NCBI GenBank assembly: GCA_027618255.1
Contig: JAQCFG010000017.1
Location: 1 to 36,228, forward strand
Reading direction: 5' to 3'
DNA length: 36,228 bases
Source of the DNA: Cyanobacteriota bacterium
Lineage (GTDB): Bacteria > Cyanobacteriota > Vampirovibrionia > LMEP-6097
The notes under the pieces were generated by a model. It was given only the letters and a program-made list of their open reading frames with translations, made no database searches and was not told where the DNA came from. The position numbers and the translations under genes were made by a program. The number at the start of each line of letters is the position of its first letter. Within the stretch, counting starts at the first letter, position 1. Shown piece by piece: positions 9,124 through 34,748 of this stretch.

Positions 9124-10106
9124 TTACCACGTCTCAACAACTTCAAGACCTTCAATAAATTCAATTTGCAAAGCTCCCAAATATAATACAAACCCAAGAA
9201 GCTTGAAGCTTTGTTGAGAGCTGGCTCTATCGCTAGTTCACCGTAATACTTTCCGCAAACAGAGTCTATCAAAGCAATTTGCATTGGACTAAGTATTGTT
9301 TTCCAACGATCAAGACTTGATTCCTTAAAACCAGTCTTGCCTCTATCTTCATCAAAAGAGCTATTGGCTTTTTGTTCTTTCAGTAAAGCAGGCGAAAACT
9401 CTTCTCCCAAGAAATCCGTCAGGTCTCTCAAGGTTGTCTCTGGTTGGGAAATTAGATCTTCATATTTGAGCAGCTTAAAATTGCGATCTTGTTGTTTTGC
9501 AAGCATCACCCGAGCAGCCCGATTCCAACTAAATGCAGCGCTCAATAGACTCTTGGAACTATTTTTGCGTTTCATCCAAGAAAGTATCACAGCTCTTGGA
9601 TCCCGGTAGATACCAATGACTTGAGCATCTGGGTATCTCGCTGATATATCTTCAAGCGAGAAGAGATGAAAAGGAGTTTTTTCAACAAATCGAGTTGCAC
9701 CTGCCTTCTCGATATTAAAACGACAAATTGCATCAAAGACTTCAAGATGATTTGCATCTTGAATCTCTTTAAATTCTTCTGAGTTTCTAAACTCAGACAA
9801 AAACTCCTCGATATTTTCATCAAGCTTGCCGCCAGTTAAAACATCCTTGGTGTACTGAGCTGAACCTCTTTTTTTGAGACTCTGCCCAACCCGATTCATG
9901 CCGATAGCGAGTGCCACAGTTAAATCATTTAAGTTCTTAGATTGGTAATAAGAATTGGCTTGAGGCCATTGTTTAACAAAAACATAGCTCTCTTTGGGCA
10001 CAGCCCAAATATTCGGATGCTCAGCAAGATTGCGTCTCAGGGCTGTAGTCCCTGACCTTCCTTCACCAACAATAAATATGGGCGCTTTCACCAAATTATT
10101 ATACAA
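9120..10106 (-). CDS. Sulfotransferase family protein
   Basis: This 328-residue PAPS-dependent sulfotransferase type transfers sulfate to a sugar, peptide or lipid hydroxyl. The 5'-phosphosulfate loop is FIVGEGRSGTTAL (residues 11-23) and the 3'-phosphate site is IYRDPRAVILSW (166-177), with LKYEDLISQPE later as usual in the family. The acceptor is unknown. The start is uncertain: the frame opens at TTG 10106, with TTG and GTG codons just after it and a TATAAT box overlapping this region, so the true start may be the GTG five codons in. A sulfatase lies 3.5 kb away, but no operon joins them. Confidence 0.85.
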   Translation of the reverse strand: MYNNLVKAPIFIVGEGRSGTTALRRNLAEHPNIWAVPKESYVFVKQWPQANSYYQSKNLNDLTVALAIGMNRVGQSLKKRGSAQYTKDVLTGGKLDENIEEFLSEFRNSEEFKEIQDANHLEVFDAICRFNIEKAGATRFVEKTPFHLFSLEDISARYPDAQVIGIYRDPRAVILSWMKRKNSSKSLLSAAFSWNRAARVMLAKQQDRNFKLLKYEDLISQPETTLRDLTDFLGEEFSPALLKEQKANSSFDEDRGKTGFKESSLDRWKTILSPMQIALIDSVCGKYYGELAIEPALNKASSFLGLYYIWELCKLNLLKVLKLLRRGN

Positions 10107-10208
10107 GAACCCAAAATCGTGATACTAATTAGAGTTCTTTAAGATATATTAATACAAATAGGCTCAATTCAGGCTGTTTTACAAGCTCTGTGCGATAAAA
10201 TAAGCCTT

Positions 10209-12122
10209 ATGCTTATAGAAGCAAACGAAATCTCCATCAACTTCGGGCAACGTCTAATACTTGACGAGGTTAGCCTACGAATTACACCGCAAAGCCGTAT
10301 TGGTTTAATCGGAGCTAATGGCGCAGGCAAATCCACTTTGCTTCAATGCCTAATGTCTGAGCTCACTCCTCAAATTGGTGAAGTCAAAGTAGCTTCCAAA
10401 ATCCAAGTCAAACATCTTACGCAAAATCCAACTATCACTCCAGGCAATACTCTAGACCAGGAGCTCAAGTCTGTTTATCGCGAAGTCCAAGAGTTGCAAA
10501 AAGAAGAGATTTATCTTAGTGAACAACTCGGTGTCGTTACCGGTGATGAGTTTGACAATGCCTTAGTAAGACTCGGTGAGATACAAGACAAGCTTGATCG
10601 CTTTGACGCTTCTAAGATAGATGAAAAAATTGGTCGGATGATTTTAGGTCTAGGATTCACTCTTGATGAGCTTCAACGGGAAGTACAAGAATTTAGTGGT
10701 GGCTGGCAAATGCGTATCAATTTAGCCAAAGTACTTTTGCAAGAAGCAGACGTTATTTTAATGGACGAGCCGACTAATCACCTCGACATGGAGGCTTGTG
10801 AGTGGCTAGAAGAATTCTTGCGTTCATACCCTTATGGGATTTTGGTTGTATCTCATGATAGACGTTTCCTCAATGAAGTAGTTACTGAAATTGCAGAACT
10901 TGAAAGAGGCAAACTAACTATTTACCCAGGCAACTACGATAAGTTCGTAGAGCAAAAAGCCGCTCGCAGAGAGTATTTGATCTCGGCAGCCAAAAGACAA
11001 GAGAAACATATAGCTGAGCAAATGGACTTTATTAATAAGTTCAGAGCAAGTGCACGCAAATCTACTCAAGCTAAAAGTAGAGAGAAACAACTTACCAAAC
11101 TTGAACGAGTCGAAGCTCCCCCATCAGAGTTACGCAAACTCAGTTTCAAGTTTCCCTTCCCAAATCCAAGTGCAAGGCATGTGCTTAGTATTAATAACCT
11201 CTCCAAAGGTTTTGGCGGCAACCAACTTTTTGAAGATATCTCACTAGATCTTGAATGGACTAAAGAAGAGCCTCAACGTGTTTTCATACTTGGAGCCAAT
11301 GGTTGCGGCAAGACAACTCTCTTTAAAATACTGATGGGACTTGAAACGCCTGATACTGGCGATGCGACATTCGATAGCAAAGTCAAACTTGGTTATTATG
11401 CGCAACATCAATTACAAATTCTTGATCCAAAGAAAACTGTGATCAAAACACTTGAAGACGCAATGCCACCAACTCCAGAAAAAGAGATACGTGGAATCCT
11501 CGGAAGATTTTTATTTTCAAGAGATGATGTCTTTAAAGAGGTAGAGCTTACTAGTGGCGGCGAGAAAGCAAGACTAGCAATGGCAAGACTAATGGTAAGC
11601 GGTCCTAATACACTCTTGTTAGATGAGCCTACAAACCACTTAGACACACCTTCCCAGGAGGCTGTTGAAGCAGCGCTTAAGTCCTATGAGGGTACAGTGA
11701 TCTGCATTTCTCACGATAGATATTTTATTAATAACCATGCGACACAGATTTGGGAGTTTGATCATGGCAGATTAATCGTTTTTAAAGGCAATTACGAAGA
11801 CTATCTCAACAAACGTAACAAGCTACTGGCAGAGTCTCGTGCCAAACTAACAATACCAGTAGAAGCTCCCAAAGAACTCAAACAAGGAGCCAAAGAAAAA
11901 GCAGCGAAGAAAGAAGCCAAAGAATTCCAAAAAGCACTCAAGGCTCTTGAAAGAGATATTCAAGTTTTACACAGAGGTAAAGAAGAATTAACCGAAAAGC
12001 TACTAGACCCAAATCTAAGTAGTGACTACCAAGCACTTAATAAATTAACCAAAGAACTTGAAGAGCTTAACACAGAGTTAGAAGCCAAAGAAGCCCAGTG
12101 GGTCAGCCAAAGTCATGTTTGA
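10209..12122 (+). CDS. ABC-F family ATPase (ribosome-associated type)
   Basis: This 637-residue protein has two nucleotide-binding domains and no membrane segments. Domain 1 has GANGAGKST (35-43), the signature FSGGWQMRINLAK and ILMDEPTNHLD; domain 2 has GANGCGKTT, LTSGGEKARLAMAR and LLLDEPTNHLD. A charged linker (AEQMDFINKFRASARKSTQA) lies between them, as in ABC-F proteins, where it reaches the ribosomal E or P site. A Lys/Glu-rich coiled coil of about 90 residues ends the protein, as in Uup and YheS. It likely resolves stalled ribosomes. It overlaps selO by 8 bases, so translation is probably coupled. Confidence 0.95.
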   Translation: MLIEANEISINFGQRLILDEVSLRITPQSRIGLIGANGAGKSTLLQCLMSELTPQIGEVKVASKIQVKHLTQNPTITPGNTLDQELKSVYREVQELQKEEIYLSEQLGVVTGDEFDNALVRLGEIQDKLDRFDASKIDEKIGRMILGLGFTLDELQREVQEFSGGWQMRINLAKVLLQEADVILMDEPTNHLDMEACEWLEEFLRSYPYGILVVSHDRRFLNEVVTEIAELERGKLTIYPGNYDKFVEQKAARREYLISAAKRQEKHIAEQMDFINKFRASARKSTQAKSREKQLTKLERVEAPPSELRKLSFKFPFPNPSARHVLSINNLSKGFGGNQLFEDISLDLEWTKEEPQRVFILGANGCGKTTLFKILMGLETPDTGDATFDSKVKLGYYAQHQLQILDPKKTVIKTLEDAMPPTPEKEIRGILGRFLFSRDDVFKEVELTSGGEKARLAMARLMVSGPNTLLLDEPTNHLDTPSQEAVEAALKSYEGTVICISHDRYFINNHATQIWEFDHGRLIVFKGNYEDYLNKRNKLLAESRAKLTIPVEAPKELKQGAKEKAAKKEAKEFQKALKALERDIQVLHRGKEELTEKLLDPNLSSDYQALNKLTKELEELNTELEAKEAQWVSQSHV

Positions 12123-16570: not shown

Positions 16571-16646
16571 ACTCTAACACGTGCTCTGCACAGTCAGAAT
16601 CTTCTTATCTCAGCATCACCAGCAAAACGGAGTTTTGTATGATGTC
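16560..16646 (-). repeat. Degenerate two-hairpin element (copy E5)
   Basis: Read on the minus strand it starts after a TA at 16647-16648 with GACATCATACAAAAC, loop TCC and GTTTTGCTGGTGATGC. An A-rich spacer with AAGAAG follows, then TGTGCAGAGCACG as hairpin II. That core is shared with the copy at 27410. The other end has no matching terminal repeat, so its limit is approximate. The first codons of the gene at 16639 lie inside the element. Confidence 0.55.
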
Positions 16647-19103: not shown

Positions 19104-19982
19104 CTATCTCACCATCGGCAAAAGTGTTAGTGCAAGAGACGCGTTAGCTTGCCGCTGACTGCTCATTGCAACTGTGCTAGAACGAAGAATGAATCCTCGT
19201 ACAGCAATACTGGTCTCTCTTGCAAAATCTGCGTCCCGCAATCGTGACCTAGTCGCCAAAGCCGCTTCTCTACTGCCGCTCATGGACTGACTCTTAGAAA
19301 CAAAAGCGTTTTCTTTTGCTCCCAAACTTGATTGTGCAGCGGCGACATTGTCAATGGCATTATCAAGTCCTGTGATAATGTCATCAAGATTGCCTGTTAC
19401 TACATCTATATTGTTTAATGCTTCCCCTAAAGCCCCGCCGCCATTACCTTCATTGATATTGCCAGCTGCATTAGCTGAAGCAGAATCAAAACTACCACTC
19501 AAATCTATGGAGTCTGTGTCGCCAGAATCAGTGCCAGTTTGAATATTAAGCGTACCGGCACTTGCATCTAATAATTTAATTCCATTAAAGCTACTGCCGC
19601 CGGAAATATCATCAATATTACTCAAACGTGAATCTATTTCACTTTGAATCGCCTGTTTTTCCACAGTGCCCAAAGTATCATTGTTTGCCTGAACGGCAAG
19701 TGAACGAATCTCCTGTAACTCAGTTTGTATAGAACCCAAACCCGCTTCTGCTGTTCGAATTAAACTAACACCATCACCTAAATTACGCTCTGCAACTTCA
19801 TAACCTCTAATCGAAGAAGTCAAAGACTGAATTCGAGCTGTATTTGCAACATCATCTGCTGCTCCGTTAATCCGCAAGCCTGAAGACAATCGCTCGATTG
19901 CCTGACCTAAGGTCCGGTTAGTTTGATTATAGGCATTTCCAAAAACTGTACTAAAACTATTAAAGCTAATCCCCGTAAGCAT
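19104..19982 (-). CDS. fliC: Flagellin
   Basis: This 292-residue flagellar filament subunit is exported by the flagellar secretion apparatus. The N-terminal D0/D1 region (ERLSSGLRINGAADDVA, then LGDGVSLIRTAEAGL and RSLAVQANNDT) and the C-terminal D1 region (SLGAKENAF, RSRLRDADFARETS) are conserved. The short middle, rich in Gly/Asp/Ser, means almost no variable outer domain. The last 30 residues depart from the usual QILxQAxxAMLAQAN pattern (GFILRSSTVAMSSQRQANA, ending LLPMVR). GGGGGA precedes ATG 19982. A sigma-28 promoter lies 94 bases upstream and a terminator downstream, so it is a single-gene unit. A nine-C run lies past the stop (19052-19060). Confidence 0.95.
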   Translation of the reverse strand: MLTGISFNSFSTVFGNAYNQTNRTLGQAIERLSSGLRINGAADDVANTARIQSLTSSIRGYEVAERNLGDGVSLIRTAEAGLGSIQTELQEIRSLAVQANNDTLGTVEKQAIQSEIDSRLSNIDDISGGSSFNGIKLLDASAGTLNIQTGTDSGDTDSIDLSGSFDSASANAAGNINEGNGGGALGEALNNIDVVTGNLDDIITGLDNAIDNVAAAQSSLGAKENAFVSKSQSMSGSREAALATRSRLRDADFARETSIAVRGFILRSSTVAMSSQRQANASLALTLLPMVR

Positions 19983-26010: not shown

Positions 26011-27357
26011 ATGAAACAAGAATTATTATCTAAGGATAGCCCAAATCAGGGTATAAAAGAAGAGATGACAGAAAAAGAATGGCCTGAATACACAGCAGGA
26101 GGCAAGACTTGTTATAACGCACAGACTTGTTTTTTGCTTAATCGCCAACATGGAATGCATAAGAATAAAAAGATAGACGATACTTTATTGTCTTACCTCA
26201 ATACTTGCAAGCGCGAAATCACCATGGAGATTCCACTGCGTCGTGATGACGGAACCTTAATGCCAGTTAAGGCTTTTCGAGTACAACACAACAATGCCCG
26301 TGGTCCTTTCAAGGGCGGCTTGCGTTATCACCAAGATGTTGACCTTGCTGAGATTCGTAGCATGGCTAATCTAATGACCTGGAAAACTGCGCTTGTTGAT
26401 ATTCCATTTGGCGGTGCCAAGGGTGGTATTGCAGTCAATCCCAAAGATTTATCAGAACATGAACTTCGCAGATTAACCAAAGCTTTGGTTTCTCATCTTG
26501 GCAATAATATTGGACCGCATATTGATATTCCAGCACCTGACGTCAACACCAATCCCCAAGTGATGTCATGGATCTATGATGAGTACGCCAAGAGTCACTC
26601 AGAAACCTCTCCGCTGGCTGTCGTCACAGGCAAACCAGTAGAGCTTGGTGGTTGCGCCGCAAGGCTTGAAGCTACCGGGCGCGGTGTTGCGATAATGCTT
26701 CGCGAGTATTGCAAGCTCAATAAAATCGATCCTAAATCATTACGAGTTGCTGTTCAAGGTTTTGGTAATGTAGGTTACCATGCTGTGCGCATAATCAGTG
26801 CTGAACTAGGTTCTAAGATAGTCGGCATCAGTAATGCAATTAGTGCAATTGAAAATCAGGATGGTATTGATGTTGAAGCTGCCAAGCAGACCGAACAAGA
26901 ACACGCCGATGATCTAAGCAAATTAGCCGGCTGCAAATCTATCAAACGTGATGATTTGCTTTTCGTTGACTGTGATGTTTTAATCCCAGCAGCTCTTTCA
27001 AATGCAATCACCAAAGAGGTTGCAGAGCGAACCAAGGCAACCGTCTTACTCGAGGCAGCTAATAGCCCGACTACAGCTGAAGCAAACGAGATTCTTTATA
27101 ACAAAGGAGTCTTCATTGCTCCAAGTATTCTTTGTAACGCAGGTGGTGTGATTACTAGTTACTTCGAATGGACACAAAACCTACAACAGTTTTATTGGGA
27201 TTATGATGTTACTGTCGCTGAGCTAGACAAGCGCATGGTCAAAGCATTTTGGGACGTCATTGAAGTTTCCGAAGAGAAGGGTATTGGAACTCGGCAGGCG
27301 GCTTACTTTATTGCTTTAGAGAAGGTTGCGGCGGCGGCTTTGTTGAGAGGGTTTTAA
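26011..27357 (+). CDS. gdhA: Glu/Leu/Phe/Val dehydrogenase, probably glutamate dehydrogenase
   Basis: This 448-residue protein interconverts glutamate with 2-oxoglutarate and ammonia using NAD(P). It has the ARGPFKGGLRYH substrate loop, MTWKTALVDIPFGGAKGGI with the catalytic Lys region, DIPAPDVNTNPQVM, and the Rossmann turn VQGFGNVGYHAV with its Gly pattern. The N-terminal 60 residues have more Cys and Asn than usual. ATG 26011 has AAAGGAG upstream. Specificity for Glu over Leu/Val is inferred from the general match and length. Confidence 0.9.
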   Translation: MKQELLSKDSPNQGIKEEMTEKEWPEYTAGGKTCYNAQTCFLLNRQHGMHKNKKIDDTLLSYLNTCKREITMEIPLRRDDGTLMPVKAFRVQHNNARGPFKGGLRYHQDVDLAEIRSMANLMTWKTALVDIPFGGAKGGIAVNPKDLSEHELRRLTKALVSHLGNNIGPHIDIPAPDVNTNPQVMSWIYDEYAKSHSETSPLAVVTGKPVELGGCAARLEATGRGVAIMLREYCKLNKIDPKSLRVAVQGFGNVGYHAVRIISAELGSKIVGISNAISAIENQDGIDVEAAKQTEQEHADDLSKLAGCKSIKRDDLLFVDCDVLIPAALSNAITKEVAERTKATVLLEAANSPTTAEANEILYNKGVFIAPSILCNAGGVITSYFEWTQNLQQFYWDYDVTVAELDKRMVKAFWDVIEVSEEKGIGTRQAAYFIALEKVAAAALLRGF

Positions 27358-27409
27358 GAGACCAGACTTAGATTTCAAGCCAATTTTAGGTAAAGAGTCA
27401 TTCTTTATA

Positions 27410-27518
27410 GGACACGCTGAAAAACGAAGTTTTTCTAGTCGGGTCCCTGATAAAAGGTTGTGACCGTGCAGAGCACGTGTCACATAAGGCGCGAGAAAGT
27501 CTATTTTTCAGTGTATCC
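27410..27518 (-). mobile_element. 109-bp TA-flanked element (copy E3)
   Basis: TA at 27408-27409 and 27519-27520 flank good terminal repeats, GGACACGCTGAAAAA and its near complement ending GTATCC. Inside are hairpin I with loop GAA, GAT plus an A-run and GG, and an 11-bp hairpin II (TGTGAC-CGTGC stem with AGA loop). The length is again exactly 109. It sits at the end of the minus-strand operon, supplying its last four codons and stop. Strand is nominal because the element is nearly symmetrical at its ends. Confidence 0.8.
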
Positions 27519-30195
27519 TATATTGATACCAATTTGCAATCTTGGGCGTTTCACATTTGCCACAAGGCGCAATTTTGCCATAATCAACGGATACATTTTC
27601 TTCCGGCTCTGACATCTCTATCTTTGCACTGTTTGTTTCTGCAACAACTAAACCCTCTGCCCTTTTCTTCTCAACCACGCTACAGCTTGGATCCCAATGC
27701 ATTAAATAATTCTCATGAACGAGACTTGGAGTTAACTTCTTGCCTTTTTTTGTAACAATGACTCTAAAACCTTGACCTTCATATACAGGAACCAATGCTT
27801 CTTTTGTATCAAGATCAACAGCCGGGGCAACCTTGACCGTATCTTTCTTCTGTGAAGTGCCCTGAGCTGAACCTGATTGGGGCTGAGGCTTTGAAAGCAT
27901 TATCAATTTCAAAAACAAATCCCGCAAATCGTCCGTGAAAGATAAATCAAAAGAAGCATTTCTATGCCATGATTTACTTAATCTTTGTAATAAAACTATC
28001 ACACTTTGCTGCAAATCATTATCTAAAAGCTCTCCCTTATTTAACCTTAGATCTAAATATTGATCCAAGAAATCTGCCAATAATTTACGAAGACCTGGCT
28101 GATCAAGCTCATCAATACGAAGAGTCAAGAATTTGGCAAATAATAATAAAGAGGTTTCAGGACTAAAAGACTCAGCTTGATCCAAAGAATTTATATCATG
28201 ATTAAATTGAAGCAATGAAAGCAAAGAATCAGGCTTAACAAGTGGAAATTGACACAATTCTGAAATCATTCGCCCAAGCATTCTATTCGTACGATCAATG
28301 GAGGGCAGAGTCGATTTGGTATTGTCAAACTTCTTAGCCAAAACTTCCAACTCGGCTTTATGGCAATCTTGATAATTAATGATATCCCTATATATCTGGA
28401 AGCCTGCAATAATTCTAGATTCATTCATTCCAGCCAAGTCTAACTTACTACAAGGTATCTCCTTGTCTTCAGCGATACGGTGATTAACGAAAGGATGAGC
28501 TCCTTTCCCTATATGTTCGTTATGATTCATCTTAATAACAGACAAACTAGGATCTTGTAACAATAGTTGTTTTTCAATCGCTGACTGAGCACTACTTGTG
28601 ACAAATCCAGAAGCGGAAGAATTTATTTTTGAAATTAAGATCGTCTGAATACCATGCGTCTTTGCAAATTGAACTAAAGCAGAAGCGATATTAACCCCAT
28701 TGTCAATAACGGATTTTGCGGAATCTGTATCTATGAAAAACACTAAAGCAAAACCAACACTAGGATCTTCAAGAATAGCAAGATTGGGATTATTCTGAGT
28801 ATATATCTGGCTACTATTCTTTTGACAGCATAGTTTAAAACGTTCAAGAGGTTGAAAATAATTAATAAGATACTCTCCACTATAACCGTTTATTGCATTG
28901 TCTTCTTTTGCTGTTGGTAAAATATCGACTTGAATACCACTCAATGGATCTAGATATTGATACGACCTTTGTGTTTGTTCATAATTAGCAAACTCAGGTT
29001 TTAATAATTGAAGCTCTCTAATGATTCCAGCGCAAGCTCTCTTTAAGTTATGAGCAAATTGAACTGTTTTGGCATACTGTGTTTTTTGAGCAGGAGACCT
29101 AGTAGCCTTTATTGCTTCAGCTTGAATCATCTCCAATTCAGTGTCATTAGTGTTGTTCAAAGCCTCCAAACAACGGGCAACTACCGGTTCAAGTGTTTTT
29201 ACTAAGTCCTCAATCTGATACATCTGCCCCTGTATTGAATAATCTGTGCCTAAGTGACTATTAATCTCTTTCAACAAGCGAAATAAATCTTGAGCCACAG
29301 ATAATTTATAATCCCTTTTGTACCCTCGCAGGTAAGAACGCAAACAACTATTGCCGGTGGGCACTGGTTCGTCTTTGGTCGGTCCATTTGATTCTAGCGC
29401 ATCAACATCCAAGTCAAAATCACTCATTGCTTGAACATCATTTTTAAAACGGAACAGAAAAGTCTCCTTCTTTCGGACTCCTCTCACTGTAGTATCAAAG
29501 CTAGTACTTGCTAGAAGAAAATATTTTTGAGCTGTATCCAATAACTTACTAAGCAATGGATGATCAAAACGAAGCTTAGTAGCATCAAAATTGTTAAGAT
29601 CACAACCTTCGATATGTTTAGCCAGTAAAGACAAGAACTCTGGATAGGGAATTGCAAATGCATCATTTTGTTTGCGTATAGAATATAATTGCAGTAACAA
29701 TGTATGATTTTGAGTTTTTGTTTTATTCAGTTCGGGATATGCCTTTGTCAAAAACTCAAAAGCCTTCGCTCTCTGTCTATCAGTCTCATTAGCACGCCCC
29801 AAAAAATGAAACAACCTTTCTAGAACCATAAAATCAGCAGCATTAAAAAAACCAGTTTCTTTAAAATAATCAGATAGTACGGGGGCAAGTTTCTTCCTTA
29901 CCTGCCCCTTGCTCTCAGTCAAAAGCTGCTTAGCCCAAGCCGGTAAATCAGTAGCTTTCAATTTCAACAAAAGATATTGATCAAGCGATGCGAGCTTTGC
30001 TTTTGGCAAGTTTGGACTTGCACCAAATTCTCGACTAAGCGAACTGGGCTCTATAATTTCTGCAGGCTCAGCAGCAGACAAACAATTCAACTCTTGAACG
30101 TGGCTAGGCTTGTCAACAAGCCGAGCTCTAGCTGTATTCAAATCAGATGTTTGATTTGCTCTTATCCTAGAATTGTCATCAACAGGACCAAGCAT
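27508..30195 (-). CDS. Large protein of unknown system, possible vWA-like segment
   Basis: ATG 30195 starts one base after the stop of the gene before it and has GAGAGG eight bases upstream; it is preferred over GTG 30231. The product is 895 residues, soluble and mostly helical. Residues about 480-610 alternate strands and helices like a von Willebrand A domain: VGFALVFFIDTDSAKSV (DxDxS in place of DxSxS), then GIQTILISKINSSASGF and a later Gly-rich GKGAHP turn. The metal site is incomplete. A linker rich in Gln/Ser/Lys (around 770-790) leads to a small C-terminal domain with CGKC (878-881). The last four residues come from element E3. Last gene of a four-gene operon. Confidence 0.6.
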   Translation of the reverse strand: MLGPVDDNSRIRANQTSDLNTARARLVDKPSHVQELNCLSAAEPAEIIEPSSLSREFGASPNLPKAKLASLDQYLLLKLKATDLPAWAKQLLTESKGQVRKKLAPVLSDYFKETGFFNAADFMVLERLFHFLGRANETDRQRAKAFEFLTKAYPELNKTKTQNHTLLLQLYSIRKQNDAFAIPYPEFLSLLAKHIEGCDLNNFDATKLRFDHPLLSKLLDTAQKYFLLASTSFDTTVRGVRKKETFLFRFKNDVQAMSDFDLDVDALESNGPTKDEPVPTGNSCLRSYLRGYKRDYKLSVAQDLFRLLKEINSHLGTDYSIQGQMYQIEDLVKTLEPVVARCLEALNNTNDTELEMIQAEAIKATRSPAQKTQYAKTVQFAHNLKRACAGIIRELQLLKPEFANYEQTQRSYQYLDPLSGIQVDILPTAKEDNAINGYSGEYLINYFQPLERFKLCCQKNSSQIYTQNNPNLAILEDPSVGFALVFFIDTDSAKSVIDNGVNIASALVQFAKTHGIQTILISKINSSASGFVTSSAQSAIEKQLLLQDPSLSVIKMNHNEHIGKGAHPFVNHRIAEDKEIPCSKLDLAGMNESRIIAGFQIYRDIINYQDCHKAELEVLAKKFDNTKSTLPSIDRTNRMLGRMISELCQFPLVKPDSLLSLLQFNHDINSLDQAESFSPETSLLLFAKFLTLRIDELDQPGLRKLLADFLDQYLDLRLNKGELLDNDLQQSVIVLLQRLSKSWHRNASFDLSFTDDLRDLFLKLIMLSKPQPQSGSAQGTSQKKDTVKVAPAVDLDTKEALVPVYEGQGFRVIVTKKGKKLTPSLVHENYLMHWDPSCSVVEKKRAEGLVVAETNSAKIEMSEPEENVSVDYGKIAPCGKCETPKIANWYQYRIH

Positions 30196-30196
30196 C

Positions 30197-31120
30197 CTAC
30201 AAGCCTCTCTTGACACGGCAAATGGTTCCACCGATATAAAACTCAGTAGCTTTGCTATCTCTGGGTTTTGCCAGAATTAATTGTCCAGTGATGTATCTAG
30301 TAATCCTCATAATGTTGGTATGAATACTATCTACGTTATCTAAAACAAATTTGCGACTTAATCGTCCAGGAGCAATAGATCCTTTGCCTGCTTTCTGCCT
30401 TTGCTTAAGTCTTCGATTTGCTATGTTACGATTGATTTCCAAAAAGCCTACTGGACGCAAATCATAAAAGACTTCAGGCTTACCATCGGGCACTAAGACC
30501 TTGAGAGATTTTTGTTGAGTAAGATCGGCATTATCACTAACAACCCAAGGACTAAGTTCAGGTTCCAGTGCTGTATACGCTGCAATTGACATTGTTTGCT
30601 CTTTTAATTTAGTGACTGTCAATTTTTGATCAGCTCCGAATTTAACTTCACAATCAATACCGCCCATATCAACAAGCAACCTTGTTTTCTCAAGATTGCG
30701 ACTAAATAAAACAAGGTTGTCGTCTAAAGCATGCTGCTCTAATTGTTCAAGTTTAGTTTGTTGTATCCCTTGATTCGTTTTTTGTGTTCTTAATTGCATT
30801 GCAGTAATAAGACTTAATAAATCAACTTGATTGGCGTATTCTGGGTCTACACTCAGTTCTCTGAGCCATTCTCTTACCAGTTCTTTTTTATTAGTAGTCT
30901 CTTTGTCCCCAAGAAACACCTTTCTCAAAGTCGCAAGTGTTTGAAAGTGAGTATGCCCCTCATCAAGCTTGTTTGGCACAGCATCAGGAGCAAAATAACG
31001 CAGTTGCGTTTTCAATAAACTATCCATAAAATCAAAGAAAGCGACTTCATTATTTTTAAATCGTTGTACTTGACTATAATTTAAGCCTAATGCACTAATA
31101 GGATTAGCAGAATCAGCCAT
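30197..31120 (-). CDS. Operon protein, related to the one before it
   Basis: This 307-residue soluble protein has GGGAG upstream of ATG 31120. Its first 70 residues follow the same pattern as the N-terminus of the neighbour (LGL, then V..RF, then F..ML..QLR.F..D...N), so the two look like diverged paralogues. The C-terminal half is strand-rich with two basic clusters (RNIANRRLKQRQKAGKG; RRSRKF-like LSRKFVLDN). It ends ICRVKRGL. No family recognised. Confidence 0.65.
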   Translation of the reverse strand: MADSANPISALGLNYSQVQRFKNNEVAFFDFMDSLLKTQLRYFAPDAVPNKLDEGHTHFQTLATLRKVFLGDKETTNKKELVREWLRELSVDPEYANQVDLLSLITAMQLRTQKTNQGIQQTKLEQLEQHALDDNLVLFSRNLEKTRLLVDMGGIDCEVKFGADQKLTVTKLKEQTMSIAAYTALEPELSPWVVSDNADLTQQKSLKVLVPDGKPEVFYDLRPVGFLEINRNIANRRLKQRQKAGKGSIAPGRLSRKFVLDNVDSIHTNIMRITRYITGQLILAKPRDSKATEFYIGGTICRVKRGL

Positions 31121-31134
31121 TATATAATCTCCCT

Positions 31135-32115
31135 TTATATTTTGATCGTACGAGCAATACCTAATAATTGAATTCGGTCAGTTTTAATATCTATAGCCAA
31201 GACAATATTCGCATCCTTAATCTCTGGACTATAAAAACGCATGATCTGCGGGAAGTCTTTTATAGCAAAACTATACTCTGTTGAAGCTCCGCCACTAACT
31301 CCAAGCTTTTTTGATTCACCTTTACCACCATGCAATAGCTTCTCTAATTCTGCAATATCAGCCGTATCATATACAAAGTCTCTGGTATCAATCGATCCTA
31401 TAATTCTCAAGCTTGGATTTAAAGTCTCCTCTTTTTGAGTTTTAAATCTCCTATAACCATATTTGGCAGAAGACTCTGTACTATCTTGACTTGGATCATC
31501 CAAAACCACTTCGTTTTTCTTTGGACTATATCTATTTAGCTCTTCAATTGTTAAACGTGGATCAATTTCAGTCAAGTCTTGTGACTTCAAAGCACCAGAA
31601 CTAGCACTCTTAAATACCTTGATCTTTTCTTGCATACCAGACCTTTCTCCACCTACACAGCCCATAGAAAATTCACCAGACAAAGCTCGATTTACATTTG
31701 TATCAATAGCCAATCTCTGATTATAGAACGCATTCAAAAATCCTGGACTTTTAACGGTACTAACAAGAACTGAAACTAACTGCTTATTAGAAGTAACTTC
31801 CCTTGCTTTCAATTTGGCAATCATCCCTTGAAACAGCTCTGCTGTTGCTGTTGCTTGATCAGCAGGTGAAGCAAGTAAAGTCTGAACTTCTTTAGCCAAC
31901 GACCCTGGTTTTGCCAAAGCAGCACCAATCTCCTGAACTTCTTGAAAAGCAGTTCTATTTGGGTAGCTACCATCATCATGAAAAGTTCGAGATTGGAGTT
32001 TAATCATGGACTGAACAAATTTGCCCAGCCCCTCCATATCCACTCTTTGATTTCTAGAATCTTGAAATCTCTTAACTAATGCTATGCCCAAACCAAGTTT
32101 GTTAAGATTTTGCAT
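31135..32115 (-). CDS. Operon protein, unknown (326 residues)
   Basis: ATG 32115 overlaps the end of the upstream gene by 14 bases; the longer frame starts at TTG 32121. N-terminal helices (GLGIALVKRFQD, MEGLGKFVQSMIKLQSRTF) match those of the next protein in pattern. The middle is charged, and the C-terminal 90 residues are beta-rich (FVYDTADIAELEKLL, ANIVLAIDIKTDRIQLLGI). No signal peptide. No family recognised. Tight spacing on both sides indicates one transcript. Confidence 0.65.
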   Translation of the reverse strand: MQNLNKLGLGIALVKRFQDSRNQRVDMEGLGKFVQSMIKLQSRTFHDDGSYPNRTAFQEVQEIGAALAKPGSLAKEVQTLLASPADQATATAELFQGMIAKLKAREVTSNKQLVSVLVSTVKSPGFLNAFYNQRLAIDTNVNRALSGEFSMGCVGGERSGMQEKIKVFKSASSGALKSQDLTEIDPRLTIEELNRYSPKKNEVVLDDPSQDSTESSAKYGYRRFKTQKEETLNPSLRIIGSIDTRDFVYDTADIAELEKLLHGGKGESKKLGVSGGASTEYSFAIKDFPQIMRFYSPEIKDANIVLAIDIKTDRIQLLGIARTIKI

Positions 32116-33283
32116 TCTCAAGCCCCATGAGTCGTTTTAATCTATCCATTGAAGTTGCATTAATGTCTAATACCGCTGTATCAAGATCTTGCAAACTTGA
32201 ACCATCAGTTATGTCTTTCAACCAATTGTTTAATAACAAAGCTGACATTTCAGTTGCAGTCATTTTTGCAGTTCTTCCGGTAGGCGCTTCCTCATCAGAT
32301 CCAACACTAGCCTTACTCTTAACCATAGAACTATTTTCCAAAGCTAAACTAATAATCGGCAGTTGTTTTTCGATAGTTTCAGAAATTGAACTTAATGCTA
32401 GATGCAAAGCATCAGCACCCTCCTCTGTATCTCCTGCAGTCTGGACAAAGCTTCTTAAAAACAATGGTACAAATGCTTCATGAGCTACAACGAGACCAGT
32501 TGCTAAACGATCTTGAACAGTACTAGGAATTACTCGTGACTCTAAATTAAAATCTTCAATTAAACTTGGTATTCTTGTAATATCCATACGTTTTGATCCC
32601 ATGAATTGTCCTGGTCTTACCTTATTAAAAGTAACTAATGCATCAGCCGCTTCACCAAGACTTAAATTATATTTATCAGCTAACTCTTCAATAGTAAATC
32701 TGATATCTCCCACAACACTAACGTCAAGAGCATAAGTATCAGCAATACGATTAATTTGACTTACTGTAACAGGGTCATTCATTATAAAATCTTTTGCTCT
32801 CAACCTTAATTCAACTGGTCCATCTTTCTTACCACCATTGGATCTCACAAGTGCTCTCTTCCCATTAGTATTAACTGCTGTACTATTAGCATTTAAAGGT
32901 TTTTTATTTACTATAATCACTCCATTATTATTGTTTATATTTGCTACTGCTGCTTCAGCAGCGCGATATGTTGTCGGTGAAACACGAAGTGCGATTGCAT
33001 TCTGTTGCACTTTAGCTCTTTCAACTTCAACCTCAGGTAATCTAACTAAGGTATGACTATCATCTTCTCCATCAATTTTGAACTCAGCCAAATCTTTAGC
33101 ATGTCTACGTAGCCATTCTTGAGCATCTACTTCATCATCTGCTGGTATAGGTAAAGGTGCACTACTTGATTTTGCAGGACTGCTAAATGCACTGTTTACT
33201 GCATCTGCAAATTGAGCTGCTTCATCATTTCCAGTAGTTACTGGTGTCTTGTCTCTTCTATGTCCTGGGTTGATTGTGTTCAT
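32102..33283 (-). CDS. First gene of the unknown operon (393 residues)
   Basis: ATG 33283 with GGAG six bases upstream and a strong promoter close by. The first 40 residues are Ser/Pro/Ala-rich and lack a Sec signal. Residues about 100-160 include an Asn run and basic patches. The C-terminal 230 residues are helical, with a possible helix-turn-helix-like stretch (RFTIEELADKYNLSLGEAAD). A late segment (TATEMSALLLNNWLKDIT) is amphipathic. It does not match a family I can name. Confidence 0.65.
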   Translation of the reverse strand: MNTINPGHRRDKTPVTTGNDEAAQFADAVNSAFSSPAKSSSAPLPIPADDEVDAQEWLRRHAKDLAEFKIDGEDDSHTLVRLPEVEVERAKVQQNAIALRVSPTTYRAAEAAVANINNNNGVIIVNKKPLNANSTAVNTNGKRALVRSNGGKKDGPVELRLRAKDFIMNDPVTVSQINRIADTYALDVSVVGDIRFTIEELADKYNLSLGEAADALVTFNKVRPGQFMGSKRMDITRIPSLIEDFNLESRVIPSTVQDRLATGLVVAHEAFVPLFLRSFVQTAGDTEEGADALHLALSSISETIEKQLPIISLALENSSMVKSKASVGSDEEAPTGRTAKMTATEMSALLLNNWLKDITDGSSLQDLDTAVLDINATSMDRLKRLMGLENAKS

Positions 33284-33308
33284 ATTTTCTCCTTTAATCT
33301 GTATGACA

Positions 33309-33338
33309 ATACTAGCCCAGCCATGAGTATTATGTCAA
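33309..33338 (-). promoter_or_regulatory. Sigma-70 promoter of the four-gene operon
   Basis: On the minus strand perfect TTGACA (33333-33338), an 18-base spacer and TAGTAT (33309-33314). Transcription would start near 33302, leaving about 20 nt before the ATG at 33283. Confidence 0.8.
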
Positions 33339-33405
33339 GCATCAATTATTAAATAATTACAATGGTCAGGATCAGACTTATTAAAATTAATTAAGCAAAA
33401 AGTAC

Positions 33406-33440: not shown

Positions 33441-33578
33441 ATGAGCTTACGAGAGTACGAGAACAACCAAACAATCAATATAAACCAGAAAATCATAGAG
33501 ATAATCAAGCAATATGAGCTGGAAGATACTGAAAACTATTATCAAGAACTCTTCGGCAATAACGCAGCTCAAAATTAA
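33441..33578 (+). CDS. Small ORF (45 residues) ahead of recA
   Basis: ATG 33441 to TAA 33578. The product is hydrophilic and helical (NQKIIEIIKQYELEDT, then ENYYQELFG), with a plausible protein composition. The promoter at 33406-33434 would put the transcript start at its first base, and no ribosome site precedes it. It ends 39 bases before recA and would be on the same mRNA. It could be a leaderless small protein or a translated leader that affects recA; neither is shown. Confidence 0.45.
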   Translation: MSLREYENNQTININQKIIEIIKQYELEDTENYYQELFGNNAAQN

Positions 33579-33617: not shown

Positions 33618-34748
33618 ATGGCAACAAAGGATAAAGAAATGAATAAAGAATTACAAAGCAAAACAGATAAACTCAAAACACTCACTGCGACATTAGCGCA
33701 GATAGACAAAAACTTCGGCAAGGGTTCTGTGATGCGTCTTGGTGATAAACCACCAATACAAATAGATGTAATTCCAACAGGTGCCATTACTCTTGATATT
33801 TGTCTTGGTATCGGTGGAATTCCAAGAGGGAGAATTATTGAGATTTACGGACCAGAATCATCTGGTAAAACCACTCTTGCTCTGTCTATCTGTGCTCAAG
33901 CCCAAAAGAAAGGTGGCATCGCTGCAATAGTAGATGCTGAGCATGCACTTGATCCTGTTTATGCTAAAGCTCTTGGAGTTAATACAGATGATCTTTTAGT
34001 TTCACAACCAGATACTGGTGAACAAGCTCTAGAAATTACAGAACACTTGGTTCGTTCTGCTGCTGTTGACGTAATAGTCATCGATTCGGTTGCCGCCCTC
34101 GTTCCTAAAGCAGAGATAGACGGCGAGATGGGAGACTCCTTGCCTGGTCTTCAAGCTCGCCTTATGTCGCAGGCTCTTCGTAAACTAACAGCAATTGCAG
34201 CCAAAACCAATACCACAATCATCTTTATTAACCAAATTAGATACAAGATTGGTGTAATGTTTGGTTCACCTGAGACTACTTCTGGTGGTAATGCACTCAA
34301 GTTTTACTCAAGTGTCAGAATGGATATTAGACGTATCGAAACCCTCAAAAAAGATGGTGAAGGTTACGGTAACAGAGTCAAAGTTAAAGTAGTCAAAAAC
34401 AAAGTTGCACCTCCATTTAGGCTTGCAGAGTTTGACATCATCTTTGGACAAGGAATTAATACTCACGGAGCTATTTTTGATTCTGCCGTCGATATGGATA
34501 TCGTCAAAAAAGCAGGTGCATGGTATAGCTACAACGGTGAAAAAATCGGTCAAGGAAGAGACAACTCTATTATTGCCCTCAAAGCAACACCTCTAGTCTT
34601 TGACGAGATAGAACTCAAAATCAAGGCTGAACTCGATGCCCAAAAAGCTGTAGCAACAGGAGTCGATCCTCAAGACTTTGCTGACATGGACGAAGACGAA
34701 AGCGAAGAAGAAATTAAAGAAGAAATTGAAGAAGAAGTAATAGCTTAG
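33618..34748 (+). CDS. recA: Recombinase RecA
   Basis: This 376-residue ATP-dependent strand-exchange protein also triggers LexA self-cleavage in SOS. Walker A GPESSGKT (78-85), EHALDP with the catalytic Glu region, Walker [11 protein letters not shown] (152-161), the L1/L2 DNA loops ([35 protein letters not shown]) and the acidic C-terminal tail are all present. AAAGGAG precedes ATG 33618. A strong terminator follows at 34817. uvrC converges on it, so two repair genes share this end. Confidence 0.98.

Follow-up and report, generated by a model that had tools for sequence, protein, structure and literature searches.

A four-gene operon between gdhA and recA

The window, that is the whole stretch of DNA analysed here, is one entire contig of 36,228 bp from a genome of 1.99 Mb in 104 contigs. 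Four minus-strand ORFs lie in it between gdhA and recA, and they are referred to below as P4, P3, P2 and P1 in the order of their presumed transcription. This genome (G000) was compared with two congeners (G001 and G002), a family member (G004) and a further genome (G005). The genus was represented by three genomes in all and the family by a handful, each species by a single genome. The features of the locus, given by their positions in the window, are as follows.

26011-27357: gdhA, flank of the operon
27358-33379: variable segment, unalignable by blastn with G001, from gdhA to the upstream region of recA
27410-27518: imperfect palindrome of ~110 bp, with terminal inverted repeats GGACACGCTGAAAAA / TTTTTCAGTGTATCC, TA-flanked
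27508-30195, minus strand: P1, operon gene 4, 895 aa from ATG or 907 aa from GTG
30197-31120, minus strand: P2, operon gene 3, 307 aa, an ORF with the ribosome-binding site (RBS) AAGGGAG
31135-32115, minus strand: P3, operon gene 2, 326 aa from ATG, with an alternative TTG at 32121
32102-33283, minus strand: P4, operon gene 1, 393 aa, an ORF with an RBS
33309-33338, minus strand: TTGACA-N18-TAGTAT, a site resembling a promoter, 25 nt ahead of the P4 start
33618-34748: recA, flank of the operon

That P1-P4 are real coding genes follows from several properties taken together. Clear RBSs precede P4 (AAAGGAG, listed as AAAGGAGAAAATATG) and P2 (AAGGGAG), with weaker ones at P3 (GGGG) and P1 (GAGAGG), and when the region was shuffled 200 times the longest stop-to-stop ORF to arise had 177 aa. 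The GC content at the third codon position, at 0.19-0.30, is the lowest of the three positions in all four genes alike, and their synonymous codon usage falls inside the range of 15 neighbouring genes. An earlier reading of the locus, made from the DNA alone, had described four tightly packed genes, and this was borne out by the co-directional ORFs running from 33283 to 27508, with a 14-bp overlap between P4 and P3, a gap of 14 bp between P3 and P2 and a gap of one base between P2 and P1, a packing that likely makes them a single transcription unit. Together the proteins comprise ~1,900 residues. None of them has a hydrophobic segment exceeding 1.41 on the Kyte-Doolittle scale over 19 residues, and no evident signal sequence or membrane span was found in any of the four. 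No RNA families were detected in the window.

The same reading had placed a strong promoter ahead of the operon, and here the sequence and its placement stood, as the TTGACA-N18-TAGTAT site matches 10 of 12 consensus positions and lies where a P4 promoter would be expected. Such sites are, however, no commoner in the region than in shuffled versions of it (14 observed versus 18.7 expected), so that the match by itself proves nothing.

At the other end of the operon, the last residues of P1 together with its stop codon fall within the palindromic repeat at 27410-27518, a point absent from the earlier account. Including this copy, 41 full or partial matches were listed genome-wide, with 28 of them at E <1e-4. 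The palindrome gives a long hairpin beyond the end of the operon, and its folding is well above that of shuffled sequences, with z values of -6.1 as DNA and -5.6 as RNA. In its length of ~110 bp, its terminal inverted repeats and flanking TA, its dispersed copies and its strong hairpin it resembles MITE-like palindromic repeats, and it looks like a MITE that has inserted at the end of P1, for which reason the native C-terminus of P1 near its CGKC motif may have been altered. The hairpin may also terminate the operon transcript. A partial copy of the repeat is found elsewhere in the window, near 16577-16609.

Features of the four products and searches for relatives

The products had been described as belonging to no nameable family, which four family libraries and the sequences of the PDB upheld: NCBIfam, PHROGs, PADLOC, Pfam and PDB sequences gave nothing significant for P1-P4, only noise. 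The best PADLOC result was Cas1e at E 0.014 across 27 residues of P3, and nothing rose above noise. No homologues of P1, P3 or P4 were found among 382 genomes of the class, nor of P2 among 60 relatives. Apart from self-matches, the class-wide searches with P1, P3 and P4 in the 382 genomes returned weak matches at E ~1e-4 to 0.1, which we read as chance because they cover short stretches at such E values; alignments were inspected for P1 only, where the matches cover residues 81-168 and 503-591. Pattern scans of IMG/VR with all four proteins, plasmid searches with P1 and P4, and searches of phage records with P1, P2 and P4 gave no match. Peptide patterns from P1 and from the P2/P3 alignment, scanned over one genome each of 84,980 species, were likewise without a match; these scans, like those of IMG/VR, detect close relatives only. 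Among the 382 class genomes (60 for P2) the four-gene operon is thus private to its species. The outcome that the sequence-only reading had held against its own proposal, namely a cluster conserved in no relative, was what we found in every genome sampled, and with the operon private among the 382 class genomes co-occurrence cannot support a conserved system.

The largest protein, P1, is predicted to have a mostly helical N-terminal part, an alpha/beta stretch in its centre and, as had been noted before, a CGKC near the C-terminus, found at residues 878-881 of 895. A degenerate vWA-like stretch had also been described in P1, for which we found no support. When the isolated stretch was searched with E allowed up to 10 there was no Pfam match to a vWA profile, and the MIDAS motif DxSxS is absent, with P1 reading DTDSA (residues 501-505 of 907) after the candidate first strand. 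Single-sequence AlphaFold2 modelling of residues 470-680 gave a mean pLDDT of 51.6 with a local alpha/beta core reaching block means of up to 83, and the 50 best PDB matches of this core in Foldseek, all with E >0.03, included no vWA structure. The modelled beta-alpha-beta-alpha-beta core would be what P1 has in common with proteins of the vWA class, whereas it differs from them in lacking a Pfam vWA match, an intact DxSxS and any vWA entry among those 50. Entries with RuvC/RNase H-like folds were frequent among the Foldseek matches, none of them being significant and the model being of low confidence, and we rejected that assignment as well.

P2 and P3 had been called diverged paralogues. This held for a common N-terminal block of ~50 aa with the pattern LGL...VxRF...FxxSxxKxQxRxF (N-N comparison, Z 7.6 versus shuffles), but not for the remaining length, as the middle and C-terminal parts are similar at chance level only, with Z about 0. 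Searched against 97 genomes, a profile of the block gave no other match below E about 0.016. A weak similarity was also seen between P1 residues 56-160 and P3 residues 66-151 (Z 4.7; hhalign P 0.013), which is unproven.

The N-terminal block touches on the question of whether the operon could serve secretion, the assembly of a surface structure or a process related to flagellar export. The bacterium has flagella, with flagellin encoded at 19104-19982 of the window and FlgD in the genome, and by eye the N-termini of P2 and P3 resemble the export region of FlgD. With a FlgD profile, however, shuffled copies of P2 and P3 scored as well as the proteins themselves, hhalign gave a probability of 0.1 per cent, and we discarded the FlgD assignment. 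The interval moreover holds no partner machinery, and the lack of a membrane span or evident signal sequence in P1-P4 disfavours secretion or surface assembly, which had earlier been offered as a function. We consider a system of any of these kinds highly improbable.

The N-terminus of P4 is Ser/Pro/Ala-rich and disordered-looking, with the remainder predicted to be helical, and the absence of an evident signal sequence agreed with the earlier description of this start as one without a Sec signal. Single-sequence AlphaFold2 modelling of P4 was uninformative (pLDDT 38.9, with every residue but one <50). Very weak profile echoes of phage proteins were seen, between P4 and Phage_TTP_1 of Pfam (E 0.016, or 0.0086 for a C-terminal fragment) and between P2 and a tail-spike PHROG (E 0.008), and these would speak for a decayed structural module of a phage or phage satellite. 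The Pfam score is, however, below the cut-off and the PHROG match marginal. In the searches of phage and viral sequences described above, P1, P2 and P4 were without a match, as was P3 in IMG/VR; genes for an integrase, terminase, portal or capsid are absent, and the reading frames of the operon are all intact. Such a phage origin is very unlikely.

The gdhA-recA interval in related genomes

At the nucleotide level, G000 and G001 are homologous up to the stop codon of gdhA and again from 33380 onwards. In G001, gdhA (C103:7219-8562) and recA (9630-10730) are ~1.07 kb apart, with one gene of 249 aa between them, and the two flanking genes are 92% (gdhA) and 95% (recA) identical to those of G000. 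Just 222 bp separates gdhA and recA in G004. In G002, a gene of 560 aa (L030:1419-3101, minus strand) adjoins gdhA in convergent orientation and the contig ends there; its product had no Pfam match and no homologue among the 382 class genomes. In G005, gdhA is adjoined by a gene of 813 aa that had no Pfam match and by a DUF559 gene, with recA on another contig. The operon is thus missing from both congeners, and the same core flanks enclose different contents, with both flanks on one contig in G000, G001 and G004 and the gdhA side seen in G002 and G005. These syntenic flanks with unlike contents among relatives make the gdhA-recA interval a variable spot of private genes. No integrase was found at the interval, repeats bounding it were short chance repeats only, and the interval genes of G001 and G002 had no viral homologues.

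As an observation on the 813-aa protein of G005 (L033:7277-9718, minus strand), visual inspection shows a likeness between its two halves, with VLKP..A.GDG occurring twice, which suggests an internal duplication.

One alternative would make the interval genes of the sister species the same system as the operon, diverged beyond recognition through very fast evolution. Interval and orientation, convergent with gdhA, are the same in G000, G001 and G002 and, as seen from the gdhA side, in G005. Against this, neither phmmer at maximum sensitivity nor hhalign detected similarity between P1-P4 and the interval genes of G001, G002 or G005, the genes differ in number and length (four versus one of 249 aa), and divergence to nothing beside a recA that is 95% identical to that of G001 would be extreme. 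We regard this alternative as very doubtful.

Immediately upstream of recA, outside the variable segment, there is an ORF of 45 aa on the plus strand (33441-33578) that starts 6 nt past a TAGTAT -10-like box and is possibly leaderless. It stays in frame in G001 with a few substitutions, is shortened to 7 codons in G002, and is a candidate recA leader peptide.

Probable private accessory cargo at a site of gene turnover

The operon is probably species-private (ORFan) accessory cargo at the variable gdhA-recA spot. Gene turnover at chromosomal hotspots in which no mobile element can be recognised is an established phenomenon (Oliveira et al. 2017, PMC5635113), and the present interval resembles such hotspots in having conserved core flanks, a block whose content varies among close relatives and, like many of those described, no recognisable mobile element. 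Those hotspots were defined by comparing genomes within a species, and most of their cargo was annotated, whereas here each species is represented by one genome and the cargo of the window, G001 and G002 is without a family. Uncultivated taxa are also known to yield many novel gene families (FESNov catalogue, PMC10849945). P1-P4 resemble these in being without homologues in reference families, here in a fragmented, multi-contig genome; the FESNov families are multi-member and conserved, whereas P1-P4 are singletons in every genome searched. The kind of phenomenon is hence already known from such hotspots and novel families, but P1-P4 are not. A lack of homologues does not prove transfer, since fast divergence or loss in the sister species would look similar, and the host-like codon usage of P1-P4 does not point to a recent arrival from a foreign source.

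With regard to what this cargo may do, the packing of the operon, the solubility of its products and the module shared by P2 and P3 suggest that the four soluble proteins could work together in the cytoplasm as a complex. In such a complex P2 and P3 would dock or assemble through the N-terminal module common to both, and P1 might serve as scaffold or effector. The role itself, the weakest step of the proposal, may be conflict-related (interaction with phages or mobile elements) or niche-specific, as judged from the usual content of such turnover spots.

An anti-phage or conflict system of an undescribed type would refine the reading as private accessory cargo and does not exclude it; defence had also been among the functions suggested in the earlier reading. 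The siting of the operon among private genes, its soluble products with a large multidomain protein among them, and the usual cargo of such spots are in line with this refinement. It is nonetheless tentative and less likely than not, as PADLOC gave no match above noise, no nuclease, protease, nucleotidase or pore domains were recognised, and there were no homologues near known defence genes. That P1-P4 constitute a new multi-component system of undescribed folds, with a shared docking module and at a spot filled differently in each species of the genus, is rather unlikely.

Most private genes of uncultured bacteria are set aside as noise or as short spurious ORFs. Here four genes, clearly coding and organised together, account for ~1,900 residues without a detectable relative. 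The comparison with sister species makes the site a repeatable place to seek private genes, with the gdhA-recA interval as a cheap handle for collecting lineage-private operons in the genus. Until a structure or an assay provides a function, the operon stays an ordinary single case.

Among the other genes of the window, the single minus-strand ORF at 13578-15683 matches pectic acid lyase (residues 115-274) as well as sulfatase (residues 283-612), an unusual fusion.
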